Shown here: positions 496 to 8,797 of the stretch, piece after piece
Layout: every line of letters starts with the position of its first letter
Numbering within the stretch: the stretch's first letter is position 1
Source of the DNA: Nitrospinae bacterium RIFCSPLOWO2_12_FULL_45_22
GTDB lineage: Bacteria > 2-12-FULL-45-22
Direction of reading: 5' to 3'
Assembly: GCA_001803565.1 (NCBI GenBank)
Contig: MHDQ01000267.1
Span: 1 to 15,819 of the forward strand
DNA length: 15,819 nucleotides
The notes under the pieces: generated by a model
Databases searched by the model: none
What the model was told of the DNA's origin: nothing
Seen by the model: the letters and a program-made list of their open reading frames with translations, nothing else
Translations under genes and position numbers: made by a program

Positions 496-3400
496 TTAGC
501 TTCTTAGCATTTGTGCAACAAGAGCATCTATTTCATCTAATTCTCTTTTAAGTATTTGGCGCACCTTCAACCTTAATACACCAATGCTTTTTATCTTCCC
601 GAAGTGACCCGATTGAATCCACCTAGTAACCTCCTTGCTACAACTCTTTCCCAATTGAGTAAGCCGGAGATGATCCTTATTCAAGGGGTCAAATTGGGTA
701 ATAGGAAGCTCCAGGACTTTTTTATGAATATCCCGGGGGCCATACTGCCCCCGACTTTGCATAGGTTTTATTAACTTATCCGTAATGGGTGCATTAAGGA
801 TAGCTACGAGATAGTAAGCTTCATCGGCGTTCTCTGTCTCTAGGCAGTAAGTCTTAGTATCCGCCACAAACCCTCTAGACTCTATTTCCTGCCCGCCGAT
901 GTCAAACCTTATGGGTTTCTTCTCTACTATACAGGCTGTCAGATAAGTACCAGAAGTATTATAAAGCACCCGATACTTAACCTGCGGGTTTTGCCGGGAT
1001 AAGCCATGAACTCGGTCTAGCCTTTCATAAATACTCATACCTTCAGCCTTTGCACCTCGCTTCTTCCCCCATTCCTCCTGCGCCTTAATAAGCCAATCTT
1101 TGAGATGATAGAAACCTCTCACATGGGCCTTATCAACATTTAAGAGCCGGTAGCCATCTTTTACTGGTTCAATAGGAAGTACCACTAGCCGATAGTCTAG
1201 ATGCCCGAAGGGTAAGAGCTCGGCCGAGAGCAGAGTAGCATAGAGGAATCTGTTTTCTACATTCCCTCTTATCACTGCATTTTTATAATTGTTCTTGGCC
1301 TCTCTCCTGGCCCGCTCAGAACTTTCCAGAGGCGGAAGCTGGGGATCGAAACCCAAGATAGTAGATGCCCTGACCTCTACAAACCAAAAAGAGCGGGGAA
1401 CAATGGTAGCCCCTTGAAAGAAGTGCCTCTTGTAAAAACTCTCTTTTGACGAAACTAGGTCTTTCTCGATAGCCCAGAATGACCTTTTGCCCTTTTGGTG
1501 CAAGTAAAGCTCTACATCTTCTATTTTCAAACAACCCTCTGCTTCATCCAAAGAGGCATTGCGCCGAGGAAGTTTTCCCCTAAGTCTTTGACCTCGGATA
1601 GGATAGAATGCTTTTGCCTGCTTCTGTCTCTCGGCAAAGAGGACACAAGATGGTACCTGGAACAACGGCTTCACCTCCTCCGCGTCCCAAACCTCCTGGG
1701 GCTGTAACATCGAATCTTGATTTACATTAAGCTTAAATTTCCCCTGTCTCAGCCCATCGTGCTGATCAGCCGTAAAGATGCTCCTGGGAAGCACAAAACC
1801 TATTGTCCCTCCTTCTTTAAGATACAGATGGGCCGTCCTAAGTAGAAATAAGGTGCCTAATTCCAAGTGAGTAATAAGCTCACCACGTCCTGAAAAGAGG
1901 TTATAGGTTTTAGTGATTTGCTCCTTGAGAAATTGCTGATATTGAGGGTCAGCATAACGGAAGGCGAGCCAGGGAGGATTGCCGATCACAAAATCGAATT
2001 TACCCTTGAGGAATAGGGGCTTATAGATATTTTTGAGGATAAAGGCCCAGATAGTGTCCCGTCGAGACTCCATAAATTCCTTCAAAGCCTTAGTAATGCG
2101 GAAAAGGGCTTGTATAACGGTAATCTCTTTTGTTAAGGTTGTATGTTGTGTTCCAAGGTAGCTTAGAAACTGGGATTCATTGATATCTTTATTGATATTC
2201 TGCTGAGCAAATTCCCTGGCCGCATCTATGGCCTCATCGTAAAGAGTGGGACTTTCAAGAAATTTTTCGGGAAGATAGATAACTTTACCGTCTAACTCAA
2301 TTTTATAGTCAGCACCAGCGGCTTGTGCCCAGCGCTCCGGAAGCCTTATGGCATCTGAAAGGTAGACCGGTATGCTTATCTTTCCTTTGGTTTTACGTTT
2401 TTTGATAAGATCGCCCAAGGCAAGGAGATAATTAGTCTTGGCTATTATGGTAGCCAAGGGGTGAATGTCAACCCCAAATACCGAATGGAGGATATGGTCT
2501 AAGGTATTTTGCGTATCTGGTAATTTAATTCGCTTCTCCCGGATGATTAGATAGAGAAAGGTGCCAGAACCACAAGCCGGGTCCAAGAAGGATCTTTCTG
2601 GACTTTCTGCTATGAGTTTCTGAACCATGCGGTGGGCAAGCCAATCTGGGGTATAGAATTCCCCCAGGTCATGCCGGGTCTTGGGATCCACCAGTTCTTG
2701 ATAGAGGGACTTGAGGACATCCTCGGAAAGTTCTCTGAGATTATAATTCCGAAGGAGACTAAAAAGCCCTATCGCAATCTCTACACCGGTATCTTTAGCC
2801 TCCTCCCGGACGATCCAAGAAAAGAAATCCTCCTCCAGAAAGTTCTCTATCCCTTGCTCCTGGAAAAACCTTCCCCCCAATACCGAAAGGATCTGGTTAT
2901 TGTCCGGTGGGTTTTGGCTTTCAAAAAGTCGGCTCCAGACCATTAATTTAGCCAGGGTAGCTAAGTAAGTGTGTCGGCAAAATAGCTCTTCATCAGCCAC
3001 TGCACTACCGTATACAATGCGGAGATAGCGCTCCCACCCATCATAAATAACCTGGGTTTCTGACCTATCCCTGATGCTTTGCCAGAGGACAAAGAGGATA
3101 GCAGAAGCTACCTGAAAGGCATGGCTTCTGATCCCAAAATCTTTAATTATATCTTCTGTTTTTGGGGAAAGAATCTCTTTCCGGAGGAAATACCGGTCTA
3201 ACCAAAAATATACCGCTTGAGGAGGGGAAAATGACCAGTCAACCCGTTCAAGGGGTGTTAAGATCACATCTTCGGGGCTAATCTCTTCCTTGGCTGGTTT
3301 GGGGGCGGAAGGAGAATAGACTGCAAAATGCAACCCGTCCGTGGCTAGGCAAATATAAGGTGTTCGAGTTGGAACGGCTTCGGACGACCAAAGACAAGCT

Positions 3401-3744
3401 ACATATCTCCTGAGCTGGTCTTCGGCCTCCCTTTGGTTTATTATCAGGTCCCGCTCAAATTCAATAATCAGATTTCCAAAGAGTTCATCTATCCGGCCTT
3501 TAAGTATCCGGTCTTTTTGTTTCATCCTCACGTATTTTTCAACGCCAGCCAGGTAATCCTCTATAAAGCCTGGCTGGAGGCCGAAGAGTTCATTTAGTAA
3601 CAATAAAAATCGTTGAGACTTGGCAGGCTCACTATTTAATCCCTTTACAGATTCAATATATTCCGTAATGAGATTATCCCATTGGGATTGACGCACCTCG
3701 GGGATACGAACTGATTTTTCGTGCAGTTTACTTTTCTTTTCCAT
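496..3744 (-). CDS. Adenine-N6 DNA methyltransferase of a restriction-modification system (type IIG/Eco57I-like), 1082 aa
   Basis: Predicted to transfer a methyl group from S-adenosylmethionine to adenine N6 in a specific DNA sequence. Residues about 355-600 form the catalytic domain. GEFYTPDWLA precedes SAM-binding motif I, DPACGSGTFL (388-397), then FGVDIHPLA with an acidic residue for SAM ribose, and motif IV NPPW (589-592), the adenine-N6 signature. Residues ~600-720 continue the methylase fold, and the C-terminal ~350 residues probably hold the target-recognition domain. The N-terminal part carries GRIDELFGNLIIEFERDL (83-100) and then QLRRY (110-114). This looks like a PD-(D/E)XK nuclease core in which the usual ExK is Glu95-x-Glu97, so the nuclease may be inactive. 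The ATG overlaps the upstream RadC-like gene by 17 bp, with AAGGAAA 9 nt upstream, suggesting translational coupling. The exact R-M subtype is inferred, not shown. Confidence 0.88.
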   Translation of the reverse strand: MEKKSKLHEKSVRIPEVRQSQWDNLITEYIESVKGLNSEPAKSQRFLLLLNELFGLQPGFIEDYLAGVEKYVRMKQKDRILKGRIDELFGNLIIEFERDLIINQREAEDQLRRYVACLWSSEAVPTRTPYICLATDGLHFAVYSPSAPKPAKEEISPEDVILTPLERVDWSFSPPQAVYFWLDRYFLRKEILSPKTEDIIKDFGIRSHAFQVASAILFVLWQSIRDRSETQVIYDGWERYLRIVYGSAVADEELFCRHTYLATLAKLMVWSRLFESQNPPDNNQILSVLGGRFFQEQGIENFLEEDFFSWIVREEAKDTGVEIAIGLFSLLRNYNLRELSEDVLKSLYQELVDPKTRHDLGEFYTPDWLAHRMVQKLIAESPERSFLDPACGSGTFLYLIIREKRIKLPDTQNTLDHILHSVFGVDIHPLATIIAKTNYLLALGDLIKKRKTKGKISIPVYLSDAIRLPERWAQAAGADYKIELDGKVIYLPEKFLESPTLYDEAIDAAREFAQQNINKDINESQFLSYLGTQHTTLTKEITVIQALFRITKALKEFMESRRDTIWAFILKNIYKPLFLKGKFDFVIGNPPWLAFRYADPQYQQFLKEQITKTYNLFSGRGELITHLELGTLFLLRTAHLYLKEGGTIGFVLPRSIFTADQHDGLRQGKFKLNVNQDSMLQPQEVWDAEEVKPLFQVPSCVLFAERQKQAKAFYPIRGQRLRGKLPRRNASLDEAEGCLKIEDVELYLHQKGKRSFWAIEKDLVSSKESFYKRHFFQGATIVPRSFWFVEVRASTILGFDPQLPPLESSERARREAKNNYKNAVIRGNVENRFLYATLLSAELLPFGHLDYRLVVLPIEPVKDGYRLLNVDKAHVRGFYHLKDWLIKAQEEWGKKRGAKAEGMSIYERLDRVHGLSRQNPQVKYRVLYNTSGTYLTACIVEKKPIRFDIGGQEIESRGFVADTKTYCLETENADEAYYLVAILNAPITDKLIKPMQSRGQYGPRDIHKKVLELPITQFDPLNKDHLRLTQLGKSCSKEVTRWIQSGHFGKIKSIGVLRLKVRQILKRELDEIDALVAQMLRS

Positions 3745-4030
3745 GACTTAGAGTTTCCTTGATTATACGGCGGGCAATTTCAAAAGCCGCTGCGATCCGG
3801 ATAATTTTAACATCCGAAAGGCCTTTAATGTCCAAAAACCTCTCCAGCGGTTGGTTTGCCATCTGAGAAAGAGAACCAAACCTCTCCAGCACTTCCTCGG
3901 CAATCTTTAATGCCGGTCTCCCTTTAATACCTGCAGAAATGAGGATAGCCAGAAGCTCAGCCTCGGATAGGCTATCTGCTCCCAGTTCCCTTAATTTCCC
4001 CCCGGGATAATGCCACTTATTCATATTCAT
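3728..4030 (-). CDS. RadC/UPF0758 N-terminal helix-hairpin-helix protein lacking the JAB domain, 100 aa
   Basis: The sequence follows the N-terminal domain of RadC (UPF0758). KLRELGADSLSEAELLAILI (12-31) corresponds to the family's leucine-rich start, and LDIKGLSDVKIIRIAAAFE (66-84) is a helix-hairpin-helix DNA-binding motif. Full RadC proteins are about 220 residues and continue into an MPN/JAB domain with HxHP; this one ends after residue 100 with a lysine-rich tail. The stop lies inside the start of the methyltransferase gene (17-bp overlap), so the short length looks like organisation, not random decay. A likely role is a DNA-binding accessory of the restriction-modification operon (inference). 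The start ATG has AAGGA 5 nt upstream; a second ATG two codons later is possible. It could also be an old truncated radC kept by its neighbour. Confidence 0.8.
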   Translation of the reverse strand: MNMNKWHYPGGKLRELGADSLSEAELLAILISAGIKGRPALKIAEEVLERFGSLSQMANQPLERFLDIKGLSDVKIIRIAAAFEIARRIIKETLSHGKEK

Positions 4031-4217: not shown

Positions 4218-5360
4218 TCATTTCCCGTATTCTCTATGGTGAAAGAGATTGGGACAGCGCGACTGGAGAGTGAAATTTGCTACTTCCCATCCATGCCGAT
4301 AAACCCGCTCAAACTCATCCTCTGAGAGTCGTCGAAGCGAAGTTTCCAAGTCTGCTACTGTATTCACGCCGCACTCCGACAAGCTATTTTCAGTAAGAGC
4401 AGCGATCTTCTCTTCAGGTATACCCGCCTGCTCTAGAATGTATCGCGCAGTATTTCCCATTCTAAGATAGACCCCGGAATTGCAGTTATCTCGGAAATGG
4501 CTGACAAGGCTACGGGCTCTAAGGCTTCTCACTTGATCCATAGCTATATTCACAAGTCGGAATGCACGCCGATAAAGAGAAGATGGCTTCTCTATCTCAA
4601 TACCCTTTGATGCATCACTTACAATGAGGAAATTGTACTCATCACGAAACTTCTCACCTTGGGATTTGAACAGTGCCTCAACGGCTAAGTTGTCGTATAC
4701 ACCGCCATCCCAAAGATGTATTTTTTTAACCTCCGGCTCGACTGATTCAATCTTTTCCTCTGGATAGTTAACGAACCTGAACCACTTATATTTGTTAGTT
4801 CTCAGAATGATGGGACCAATGAGACCAGGATATGCAGCAGAAGCAGCCATCGCATCCGCTAAAGGAATTGCGGGATTACTCACATAGTTCAGAATATAGT
4901 CTCCCATTCGCTGCGGCATAAAACGCCAGTTCTTGCCGGACTCATAAGAGGTTGCATTTATAATCCAGCGAGGCTCGGTTGGTATATCCCTAAGAAGACC
5001 ACACACCTGCCAACAATGCTGAATGCTCTCGGAGAGCAGCTTGGCTTTTCCTTGAATAAGAAACCACGGCTGTGTAAGTAACTTAAATACTACATCATGT
5101 TGAATATTTGTCTGAGTGAGATAATACCTGGCCTGAGAGAGACTCTTATTAATGAAGGCATCGCTTGTTGGCCATCTATTTCCATAAATGGAGTAGATCA
5201 GGCCGATTCCTAAGCTTCCTCCCGAAACCGTAGAAATAAAGGTTATGTTTTCTAACAGTCCATCAGCGGCTAATCGGCCCAGAACACCAAAGTGAAATAC
5301 CGCTGCACGCACACCACCGCCCGATAGGGCGATTCCTATCTTTAGTGTGTCTCTACCCAT
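4218..5360 (-). CDS. Patatin-like phospholipase, candidate membrane-attacking effector, 380 aa
   Basis: Patatin-family lipid acyl hydrolase. The oxyanion-hole loop is SGGGVRA (13-19). The nucleophile elbow is STVSGGS with Ser46. The catalytic Asp is in WDGGVYDN (Asp218), giving the usual Ser-Asp dyad. The elbow has Thr where many patatins have the first Gly of GxSxG; Ser-rich variants like this occur in bacterial patatins, and the protein is probably active. ASAAYPGLIGP (173-183) is another typical patatin stretch. No signal peptide or transmembrane segment is evident, so it is probably cytosolic. It follows the E2-E1-JAB gene by 76 bp on the same strand. In CBASS, patatin-like CapV phospholipases are effectors that degrade the inner membrane after cyclic-nucleotide signalling. 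An effector role here rests on that parallel and the gene order. The residues C-terminal to ~250 are not recognised and might hold a ligand- or partner-binding part. Confidence 0.9.
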   Translation of the reverse strand: MGRDTLKIGIALSGGGVRAAVFHFGVLGRLAADGLLENITFISTVSGGSLGIGLIYSIYGNRWPTSDAFINKSLSQARYYLTQTNIQHDVVFKLLTQPWFLIQGKAKLLSESIQHCWQVCGLLRDIPTEPRWIINATSYESGKNWRFMPQRMGDYILNYVSNPAIPLADAMAASAAYPGLIGPIILRTNKYKWFRFVNYPEEKIESVEPEVKKIHLWDGGVYDNLAVEALFKSQGEKFRDEYNFLIVSDASKGIEIEKPSSLYRRAFRLVNIAMDQVRSLRARSLVSHFRDNCNSGVYLRMGNTARYILEQAGIPEEKIAALTENSLSECGVNTVADLETSLRRLSEDEFERVYRHGWEVANFTLQSRCPNLFHHREYGK

Positions 5361-5436: not shown

Positions 5437-7680
5437 TCAGAGCATTTGTCCTAGATACCATGCATACTGGCTGCGATCGCCAGTGATTAGCATCAATGGG
5501 GGAAACCCATCCGCAATCATATTCTCCGCGAGCCACATAAATGCTTTACGATCATCTTCACTCGGCCAGCAACCACAATCATCGGGATGTGAGTGCCACT
5601 CTCCCACATACTCCAGCATTCCTAATGTAATTTGGTGGATTTCATTCATGCGCATCATCAGGCCCTGACACCCACGAATATAGACTGTAGGCCATTCTTT
5701 ACTATCCGGTGGTGATGGTAGTGTGTCTAAAACATAAACAATCTTCCGTTGCATATCAAATGAGCCTACTAGCACACCTCCAGTCTCATTGGGCAATTTG
5801 TCAGCACGAGCATTATAGATTTTATTCACCAGCCATTGATCTGTGCATAACATCCAGTCACCAATTTTTTGCTTTATAATCAACTCAGGGTAAACTCGAT
5901 TACATTTTACACTCAAGTCACTGGTATCAGCTTGCCATATTATGATACTACAGTTCTCGTCTAAGAGTGTAGTACGCATCGCACGGCTACAGATAGCTGC
6001 ATGTAAAGCGACAAGATCTTGTGGTATGGTACTGCTGATGTCACGACATGAATTGGAGTATCGGATACGGGTATCACTTCTGCGCAAATGTTGCTCGAAA
6101 GCTGGGTTATTGATTAGATGCCGATAGTACTGCATCTCCAGGTAATCGAGAGTTGTATCCCTAGTCGCCCCTTCGGCCAGCATGACCGCATCAGAACCTG
6201 ATGGATTGAGAAACATTGAAATACGACGCGCAGACAAATCAATATCACGCGCCAGATGGCGTGCAACTGCTATGCTAGTGGAAAAATCTAAAATGACATC
6301 AGCTTCTCTAAAAGTATCTTGTATTTTTTCAGTGGATTTAGGATTCAGAATATCTTCAACAACCCCCGTTGCTATAGGTTCCCCTTTGACGAGTTCATTA
6401 GCAATAAAGGCAAGTGCCTCCGACTTAGGGTAACCAACAGCAAAGCCTGGAAGCGCATGGCGTGCAAGATTGTGAGGCAAGAAGTAATCCTCATCAATTA
6501 AGGTCCATTCGCCATATCCCATCCGAATTAGATTCATAAATACCTGTGAACCCAGTGCACCCAAACCGATAGCTACAATTCTTCTGCCCTCCCTTTGTGA
6601 TAAACCATTAAGCTGGATAGCAATATCTCTTGAAAACGAATACGTGGGCTTAAGCAGAAGAATCACCACATTGTTGCCTTGTTTAGTTTGGTCTATCTCT
6701 AATAAGGTGCCCAGTTCACCATCCTTAGTCTCCCAAATCCCAATCTCTTCTCCAATTTCCTTGATGGTGTTTACGCTCAAGAAAGCCCAAATATCCGTTA
6801 CCTCTACCGTACTCGTTGCCCCCCGCGTCTTAGGGAGAGCCAGAATTACTATAAGCTTAGCATCGAGTATGTCCATATGTGGCTTATTTATTTGCCAATC
6901 GCGCAGACATTTCCGCAACTCCTCCAATAAATCAACCCGAGCCTTAGTCGTAAACTCATGTAGTTCAAGTAAGTTTTTCGGCTGTTTGTAAATTATGCCA
7001 TGAGTCTGAGGAGAGCACTGGATAGCAGTCGCAACATAAGTAGGCTTATTTGGGTCTCTTGATTTACTTTCTATCCGTTCTGCAATAAGGGTTATTCTAT
7101 TATTGCCTCCATCTATTGGCTGGATTGTAAGCAGTTCGGGAACCTCGAGGCTATTATTCGAGAACAGGTCAAATGGCACAACTAACTGCCAAGGAGATCC
7201 CATTAATAGGGGCTCTAGCGGCTGGTATTCTCCATGAAGTTTCCCCTTGGCAGTCAATGTCAGCCATTCACGAATGCGCTCAATAAAACGTGGGGCTGTC
7301 CAGCGCAGTTTCAGCTCGCTGTACCTTTCCTCGAATAGGCAAAGACTCCGAGGAAATTCCTGCTCTCTCAAGTTAAGGTGAGGTACTCTTGGGAAATTAT
7401 CACGCAGTGCCAATACTTCAGGAGCCATTTTGTCAGCAGGATCAAAAATTACAGCAATACGTTCATCCCGATAAATATCATGAACATTTATTTGGCCAAT
7501 TTCGACTTCAGTTTCAAAAACAACAACTTCTGCCTGAATCTGGTCGGCAATTCGTCGGCACTCTAAGAGACGAACAAAAGGCAACCTCTTTAATGCACAA
7601 ACCACCTCCCTTGCCTTAAAGATTCTAAGTTCTTCGGGGGTGATGACCTCACCTGACGGCGGAAGGTAATTAATAGACAT
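5437..7680 (-). CDS. E2-E1-JAB triple fusion: ubiquitin-like conjugation, activation and deconjugation enzyme (Cap2/Cap3-like), 747 aa
   Basis: Three parts are visible. (1) Residues ~20-155 look like a prokaryotic E2 (UBC fold): VPHLNL (99-104) then PRSLCLFEE with candidate catalytic Cys114, then a Trp and a C-terminal helix ending in GKLHGEYQPLEPL. (2) After a ~200-residue linker, residues ~365-600 are a ThiF/E1 adenylation domain. It has GLGALG (372-377) for ATP, DEDYFLPHNLARH (396-408) for Mg/ATP, Lys419, and Asp465 in LDFSTS. Cys545 in NSCRDISSTIPQDL is the probable E1 catalytic cysteine. (3) Residues ~620-747 are a JAB/JAMM metalloprotease: Glu632 (NETGGVLVG), HSHP (His696, His698), Ser707 and Asp710. 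The E2-linker-E1 layout matches CBASS Cap2, and the JAB domain matches Cap3. The start overlaps the MBL gene by 11 bp with GGGGGA 4 nt upstream, so the two are translationally coupled. No ubiquitin-like protein is encoded nearby, so the substrate is unknown. The E2 call is the least certain of the three. Confidence 0.9.
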   Translation of the reverse strand: MSINYLPPSGEVITPEELRIFKAREVVCALKRLPFVRLLECRRIADQIQAEVVVFETEVEIGQINVHDIYRDERIAVIFDPADKMAPEVLALRDNFPRVPHLNLREQEFPRSLCLFEERYSELKLRWTAPRFIERIREWLTLTAKGKLHGEYQPLEPLLMGSPWQLVVPFDLFSNNSLEVPELLTIQPIDGGNNRITLIAERIESKSRDPNKPTYVATAIQCSPQTHGIIYKQPKNLLELHEFTTKARVDLLEELRKCLRDWQINKPHMDILDAKLIVILALPKTRGATSTVEVTDIWAFLSVNTIKEIGEEIGIWETKDGELGTLLEIDQTKQGNNVVILLLKPTYSFSRDIAIQLNGLSQREGRRIVAIGLGALGSQVFMNLIRMGYGEWTLIDEDYFLPHNLARHALPGFAVGYPKSEALAFIANELVKGEPIATGVVEDILNPKSTEKIQDTFREADVILDFSTSIAVARHLARDIDLSARRISMFLNPSGSDAVMLAEGATRDTTLDYLEMQYYRHLINNPAFEQHLRRSDTRIRYSNSCRDISSTIPQDLVALHAAICSRAMRTTLLDENCSIIIWQADTSDLSVKCNRVYPELIIKQKIGDWMLCTDQWLVNKIYNARADKLPNETGGVLVGSFDMQRKIVYVLDTLPSPPDSKEWPTVYIRGCQGLMMRMNEIHQITLGMLEYVGEWHSHPDDCGCWPSEDDRKAFMWLAENMIADGFPPLMLITGDRSQYAWYLGQML

Positions 7681-8797
7681 TAGTTCCCCCAGCCCTTGGG
7701 GCAGGCCGACTTATTATGCCTATACTACCACTGAGAATTGTTTTTCTAAGTGTTGCTTTTGATCCATCTATGGTGATGCGTACTGGTGCGGGACTGGATG
7801 GCTTGGGATACTCCATAGTTACGACGAAGTCACCCGTAATAGCTGAGGCACGTTCATTATAGTAGTTGGCCGCTTGAGGGTGGGGAGGTTGAGGATCTTC
7901 ATAATTCTCCGGTATCCGGTTGCTACTTGATACTAAAATCCCTCTCTCGAAACCCTGCTCAAATAACCATTTTACTTTAGGAAATGGTTCTGTCTTAACC
8001 TCTCCCCTCTTGCTACTCAGTGCCATATAGCTACAATGATGAGGAATATTAAATACATCCCATGCTAGACGCTCGTCTCTCTTATAATACCTAGTAATAT
8101 TCACAATATCGGCCAAAATTTCATAAGTTGTGTCCCCGCATATCATGAACCGGGTGACTTTTGCATCATACACAAATGTAGCCTGAAGTATGAGTGAACA
8201 CTCATTACGATCAACCAAGTTGCCATCTTTTAGGCGGACAGCAAATGGTGAATGTACAAAGAATTCGACTCCTTCAGATTCCATTGTAAAACCTGGGACG
8301 AGCTGGCCGGCGTCTGTTATTAGATGCTTGCGGTGTTCCAGTTTTAGACCCTCATTCTCGAGCCACGCTAAGAGTCTATCTGGACGCGAGAAAACTCTAA
8401 TTCCTTTGCCAGCCTTCAAGCGGTGTCGGGCCTCGGCACGCAATATCCTGGCTTCACCCTCAAGGTTCTCCTCAATGATCATCGCTGCGGGAACCCAAAG
8501 TTCAGTAATTTTGATACGATTATCATCTTGATATTTTTTCGCATGTTCCAGGTAAAAAAACTCAGAGGCACCATGAATGTGGTCATCATCGGCATGAGTG
8601 AAAGCTACAACATCATAATAGTCTCGGTTAGCTGCTTTAAGGTCTTCACGGAGAGCGGTTGCTAAGTCAATTCGTAGATCTTCCTCGTCTTCCGCATTAC
8701 GATAATGTGCGTAGTCAAAAAGCAGTTTACGCCCACAAGCGAGATCAATCTGACAACAGTCTGCATTCCCGATTGGGAAAAAGGTTAGGGTGTGCAT
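7670..8797 (-). CDS. ComEC/Rec2-type metallo-beta-lactamase-fold hydrolase, 375 aa
   Basis: Metal-dependent hydrolase of the MBL fold, closest in motifs to the soluble domain of ComEC/Rec2. The metal motif is THADDDHIHG (His68, Asp70, Asp72, His73), the HxDxDH form used by ComEC in place of HxHxDH. Further motifs are NECSLIL (198-204), MICGDT (Asp222), IPHHCS (His253, His254) and PHP (His306). There is no signal peptide and there are no membrane helices, so unlike ComEC it is a free cytosolic protein. Possible substrates are nucleic acids or nucleotides, by analogy only. It is the first gene of the cassette: the ATG has a strong AAGGAGGA 7 nt upstream, and a 524-bp gene-poor stretch precedes it. 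The last 22 residues form a Pro/Gly-rich tail ending in RAGG (368-371) plus TNVY. The tail lies outside the fold and might be a processing or conjugation site (speculative). Confidence 0.9.
   Translation of the reverse strand: MHTLTFFPIGNADCCQIDLACGRKLLFDYAHYRNAEDEEDLRIDLATALREDLKAANRDYYDVVAFTHADDDHIHGASEFFYLEHAKKYQDDNRIKITELWVPAAMIIEENLEGEARILRAEARHRLKAGKGIRVFSRPDRLLAWLENEGLKLEHRKHLITDAGQLVPGFTMESEGVEFFVHSPFAVRLKDGNLVDRNECSLILQATFVYDAKVTRFMICGDTTYEILADIVNITRYYKRDERLAWDVFNIPHHCSYMALSSKRGEVKTEPFPKVKWLFEQGFERGILVSSSNRIPENYEDPQPPHPQAANYYNERASAITGDFVVTMEYPKPSSPAPVRITIDGSKATLRKTILSGSIGIISRPAPRAGGTNVY

Follow-up and report, generated by a model that had tools for sequence, protein, structure and literature searches.

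An E2-E1-JAB triple fusion of the 6A-MBL family, its predicted conjugation partner and a patatin-like neighbour

How can one polypeptide carry enzymes that attach a ubiquitin-like modifier and an enzyme that removes it, without the two cancelling each other? A sequence-only reading of the window (the whole 15,819-nucleotide stretch of DNA analysed here) raised this question. It described a 747-residue protein with the activities of CBASS Cap2 and Cap3 in one chain and all active sites intact. The minus-strand reading frame is indeed 747 residues long. Direct translation puts His101, Cys114, G372LGALGS378, Cys545, Glu632, His696, His698, Ser707 and Asp710 at the expected positions. The features of this gene are as follows.

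5437..7680, minus strand: E2-E1-JAB triple-domain protein (6A-MBL cap2_3), 747 aa; reading frame, NCBIfam NF058523, AlphaFold2 (AF2) model, Cap2 7to3_A
7171..7680, minus strand: E2 (UBC-like) domain, residues 1-170; Prok-E2_A
7378-7380, minus strand: His101 of E2, invariant 89/89
7339-7341, minus strand: catalytic Cys114 of E2, invariant 89/89
5881..6633, minus strand: E1 (ThiF-like) domain, residues 350-600; ThiF, GLGALGS at 372-378
6046-6048, minus strand: catalytic Cys545 of E1, invariant 89/89
5440..5880, minus strand: JAB/JAMM isopeptidase domain, residues 601-747; Prok-JAB, with Glu632, His696, His698, Ser707 and Asp710

Scans of genome and viral contigs with a single sequence returned no relatives. 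An alignment-based scan gave 437 candidate loci in species genomes. Relatives were also present in 337 plasmid records, mostly from Klebsiella and other Enterobacteriaceae, and none were found in phage records. The 80 genome loci used are the best of the 437, so the frequencies given below are biased towards close relatives. All three domains are matched in Pfam above the curated cut-offs: Prok-E2_A at residues 53-172 (E 3.1e-20), ThiF at 353-476 (E 3.1e-13) and Prok-JAB at 618-735 (E 4.3e-10). The same three models match each of the 62 homologues scanned. Cys114, His101, Cys545, Glu632, His696, His698, Ser707 and Asp710 are invariant in 89 of 89 full-length homologues, and the remaining cysteines are not invariant in this set. 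The claim of three activities with intact sites in one chain therefore holds.

The fold of the N-terminal part deserves separate attention, since the sequence-only reading depended on a UBC fold there and on the conservation of Cys114 just described. A sequence search with the E2 domain alone found no match among solved structures. The JAB segment matched peptidase 9ild (E 1.1e-6) and, weakly, proteasome RPN11. An AlphaFold2 model of the whole chain, built from 62 sequences without plasmid-derived rows, has a pLDDT of 92.0 and a pTM of 0.86. Its best structural match is Enterobacter Cap2 (7to3_A; residues 13-598, Z 26.9, 511 residues). This match begins at residue 13, so it includes the N-terminal E2 domain, and the predicted structure agrees with a UBC fold there. 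The E1 domain superposes on that of Cap2 in 7tsq_B (Z 26.1, rmsd 1.8 over 200 residues). Both 7tsq and 7tsx, in which Cap2 has the C-terminus of the cyclase bound, are among its best matches. BubCD (9ea4) is a weaker match, with a Z of 18.9 against 26.9 for Cap2. The confident rows from a viral structure library are single-domain matches alone.

A Cap2-like fold does not make this a CBASS protein. It belongs, by its sequence, to the already described 6A-MBL family. The protein scores 647.7 bits against NF058523, "anti-phage 6A-MBL system cap2_3 protein" (cut-off 320). The product of the adjoining gene at 7670-8797 scores 410.6 bits against NF058524, "6A-MBL MBL-fold protein" (cut-off 220). Both are equivalog models of NCBIfam release 20. 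Iyer, Burroughs and Aravind (2006) described an operon type 6a in which a triple-module E2-E1-JAB protein adjoins a specialised metallo-beta-lactamase (MBL), and many of these operons were described as two genes. The triple fusion is thus what one normally finds in a known family. The window shares with it the three modules in one chain and in the same order, the MBL alongside, scores far above both cut-offs and the conserved catalytic residues of E2, E1 and JAB (89/89). It differs in having a patatin as a third gene, outside the two NCBIfam models. No paper on "6A-MBL" was found in the literature that could be searched, and the putative anti-phage role here comes from the NCBIfam name.

One can still imagine a fused Cap2-Cap3 of type II CBASS whose cyclase has been lost or lies elsewhere. 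The closest solved fold is that of Cap2, and CBASS too has a patatin effector (CapV). Likenesses to type II CBASS extend to the JAB isopeptidase, a membrane-damaging effector and a conserved C-terminal Gly on the partner enzyme. However, Pfam finds no CD-NTase among the window genes beside the E2-E1-JAB gene, and the one model used for the genome, SMODS, gives no cyclase match in an assembly that is 85% complete. In 86 homologous loci an MBL takes the partner position, and the dedicated 6A-MBL models are far over cut-off. Here Cap2 and Cap3 are fused, with JAB at the C-terminus, and an MBL enzyme replaces the CD-NTase. We give this alternative almost no credence. What stands of the sequence-only reading is the Cap2-plus-Cap3-like combination of E2, E1 and JAB in one chain; the view of it as an unusual CBASS protein does not. 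The Bil and Bub systems likewise bring together bacterial E1, E2 and JAB activities in operons for defence, but they include a beta-grasp ubiquitin-like protein and their E1 is more distant. No Pfam match to a beta-grasp ubiquitin-like protein was found among the eight window proteins scanned, and a divergent one is possible.

If the operon does not encode a cyclase or a recognisable ubiquitin-like protein, it is worth considering what the enzyme attaches. We looked to the MBL gene, which overlaps the start of the E2-E1-JAB gene by 11 nt.

7670..8797, minus strand: MBL-fold partner, 375 aa, ComEC-nuclease-like, predicted modifier; NF058524, AF2, ComEC match
7688..7696, minus strand: Arg368-Ala369-Gly370 of the MBL, predicted conjugation site; tail conservation, predicted disorder
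7673..7687, minus strand: GTNVY, a five-residue extension after RAG, predicted from the model below to be trimmed by JAB

The AF2 model of the MBL has a pLDDT of 91.2, and order is poor only in a short segment inside the chain and in the final 25 residues. The closest solved folds are the beta-lactamase-like domain of ComEC (9ic4, Z 23.3) and phosphorylcholine esterase. The metal motif (His68, Asp72, His73) and the HH-S motif are invariant in 86 of 86 sequences. Within the disordered tail, residues 353-366 carry 0.8-2.4 bits of conservation and the RAG motif 3.5-4.2. Position 368 is Arg or Lys in 84/86, 369 is Ala in 75/86 and 370 is Gly in 85/86. The sole sequence without the Gly (locus L044) is aberrant at its end as well. 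Of the 86 sequences, 55 stop exactly at the Gly, and nearly all others have 1-8 unconserved residues beyond it, GTNVY in the case of the window. Eight related MBLs of the PDC-M48B family end differently, without the [R/K]AG motif. Distances among the MBLs correlate with those among the E2-E1-JAB proteins (r 0.76, 0/2000 permutations).

Cap2 of type II CBASS becomes linked through a thioester to the C-terminal Gly or Ala of the cyclase. Deletion of this residue abolishes conjugation and phenocopies the loss of Cap2 (PMC10097602). This, the conserved disordered tail and the matches to 7tsq and 7tsx lead us to infer that it is the MBL which is conjugated. The analogy suggests a part like that of the cyclase in type II CBASS. 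The MBL does not have a beta-grasp fold, which counts against it as a modifier. Neither is cGAS a beta-grasp protein. We found neither the tail motif nor MBL conjugation stated for 6A-MBL in the literature that could be searched, and the workers who coined the name cap2_3 may already be aware of the latter.

The tail could have a more trivial origin. In many loci the MBL gene runs up to or into the next start, and in the window the codons AGG GCT GGG stand ahead of the ATG. The RAG motif would then be a side effect of a ribosome-binding site (AGG-GCN-GGN) for the overlapping gene and not a conjugation site. Yet Arg is mostly CGN (48 of 79, against 31 AGR), Lys is AAA in five sequences, and all four Ala codons and all four Gly codons are used. 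The spacing to the next start also varies, up to 38 nt and beyond. Such varied codons mean that selection acts on the protein, not on a ribosome-binding site. We think this origin very improbable, and as a candidate it was rejected on codon use.

Another scenario leaves the MBL as effector or target only, with E2-E1-JAB activating and conjugating a ThiS/MoaD-like protein encoded elsewhere. Four ThiS/MoaD-family matches are over cut-off in the genome, and Iyer et al. (2006) suggested an endogenous ThiS/MoaD as one option for the modifier. However, a nearly invariant, disordered [R/K]AG tail has no other obvious reason, the MBL and E2-E1-JAB co-vary, and in Cap2, the best-studied relative, the modified protein is the operon partner. 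This makes the ThiS/MoaD scenario quite unlikely.

Taking the MBL as the conjugated protein, we can return to attachment and removal. The sequence-only reading raised the danger of cancelling for the fusion. This danger is not peculiar to it, since Cap2 and Cap3 of type II CBASS also share one cell, and one study proposes a regulated equilibrium for them (PMC11153139). Since the MBL of the window has residues beyond the conserved Gly, JAB may have to act both before and after ligation. Trimming cannot be its universal role, as 55/86 sequences have no extension. Its active-site residues do not vary even in loci where the MBL already ends in the Gly, so removal and not only trimming must be a general role. 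Where processing must precede ligation, and where a regulated balance is possible as for Cap2 and Cap3, there is no necessary cancelling.

The third gene of the window lies on the same strand, 76 bp downstream of the E2-E1-JAB gene.

4218..5360, minus strand: patatin-like phospholipase, 380 aa, likely effector; PF01734, E 1e-15

Enough downstream sequence was available at 87 loci. A patatin lies no more than two genes from the MBL/E2-E1-JAB pair in 31 of them, and a multi-transmembrane (TM) family of about 250 residues lies near the pair in 32; the two never occur together (0/87). About 10 of the other 24 loci have another small TM-rich protein. Patatins that adjoin the enzyme gene are on the same strand in 31 of 32 cases, often overlapping it. 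Outside the adjacent position there are only six patatin hits in about 1,141 kb of flank, and one of these is just beyond the distance cut. The catalytic motifs are essentially intact in 33/33 patatins. Their distances track those of E2-E1-JAB, with an r of 0.82 that was not reached in 2,000 permutations. Given this association across loci, the operon in the window is MBL, E2-E1-JAB and patatin. From gene content, the third gene would usually be a membrane-directed effector, either a patatin or a multi-TM protein. A recurrent third gene of this kind was not found in the literature that could be searched.

The neighbour could instead be a passenger, a helper or a separate defence gene if the MBL itself is the killing nuclease. 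The MBL fold is closest to the MBL domain of ComEC, the protein weakly matches the MBLs of Lamassu and DRT systems, and the type 6a operons already mentioned often have two genes. Against this, 63/87 loci have either a patatin or a TM protein close to the pair, with no locus having both, and the patatins follow the enzyme in their distances. This association argues that the third gene matters, so we regard the MBL as killing nuclease as unlikely.

The PADLOC candidate PDC-M48, an MBL with a small TM protein, also pairs an MBL enzyme with a membrane protein, but PDC-M48B MBLs lack the RAG tail (8/8). Parts of PDC-M48 (the TM protein and/or a second MBL) occur in 6A-MBL-like loci, at 8424-8930 in L090, 12852-13919 in L029 and 2501-3571 in L114. 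One 6A-MBL locus has a PDC-M48A TM protein (199 bits by PADLOC), and in L029 and L114 a second MBL of the PDC-M48B type is beside the core. This suggests that pairs of MBL and TM protein exist both with and without a conjugation enzyme.

We think it somewhat probable that the window holds a 6A-MBL anti-phage operon in which E2-E1-JAB conjugates the MBL, leading to activation of the patatin. The domains, active sites, folds, tail and gene order are those observed above, and it is the conjugation mechanism that we infer from them. The MBL would take the role held by the cyclase in type II CBASS. JAB would first cut off GTNVY, exposing Gly370. E1 would then adenylate Gly370, load it on Cys545 and hand it on to Cys114 of E2. 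E2 would attach the MBL to a lysine, either on a target or on itself. Conjugation would prime the MBL enzyme during infection, and JAB would later remove the conjugated MBL. Once primed, the MBL, whose activity is probably that of a nuclease or phosphodiesterase, would lead to patatin activation, a step suggested by gene order and co-variation. The patatin would damage the cell membrane and the phage would be stopped by abortive infection.

We are evenly divided on a broader scheme. It would be a CBASS-like modular defence in which an MBL-fold enzyme is itself the ubiquitin-like modifier through a C-terminal Arg-Ala-Gly, sometimes made as a precursor. One E2-E1-JAB chain would mature, ligate and release it, and so control interchangeable patatin or TM effectors. 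The E2-E1-JAB fusion has been known since 2006; what may be new is the MBL tail and the effector pattern. The scheme gives a testable rule: a neighbouring enzyme with a conserved C-terminal Gly is the conjugated protein, whatever its fold. If it is true, bacteria use ubiquitin-like conjugation, coupled to unrelated enzymes (cyclases, MBL enzymes), as a general way of switching membrane-killing effectors. The rule would also hint at how one chain can accommodate both a ligase and its protease.

Several minor observations should be noted. Next to the 6A-MBL operon, the minus strand at 3728-4030 encodes a 100-aa stand-alone RadC N-terminal (UPF0758_N) protein without the JAB-like C-terminal part of RadC. 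This gene runs into the start of the gene for a type IIG-like restriction-methyltransferase (496-3744, minus strand). A single 1171-aa reading frame covers both the MBL and E2-E1-JAB in L081 (8708-12223). We rejected it as a natural polyprotein, since its tail is out of frame and reads STRRGRADRMTAL where relatives have STPARAG-stop, which makes a frameshift likelier than a natural fusion. A divergent gene for a WYL-domain regulator is upstream of the MBL gene in L009, L010, L013, L017 and L018, and none was seen in the window. The MBL copy examined for genome G245 (L022) has about 20 residues after RAG. In the same genome, two copies of the MBL gene (L119 and L120) lie towards opposite ends of a single 9.2 Mb contig, an arrangement like that of terminal inverted repeats.
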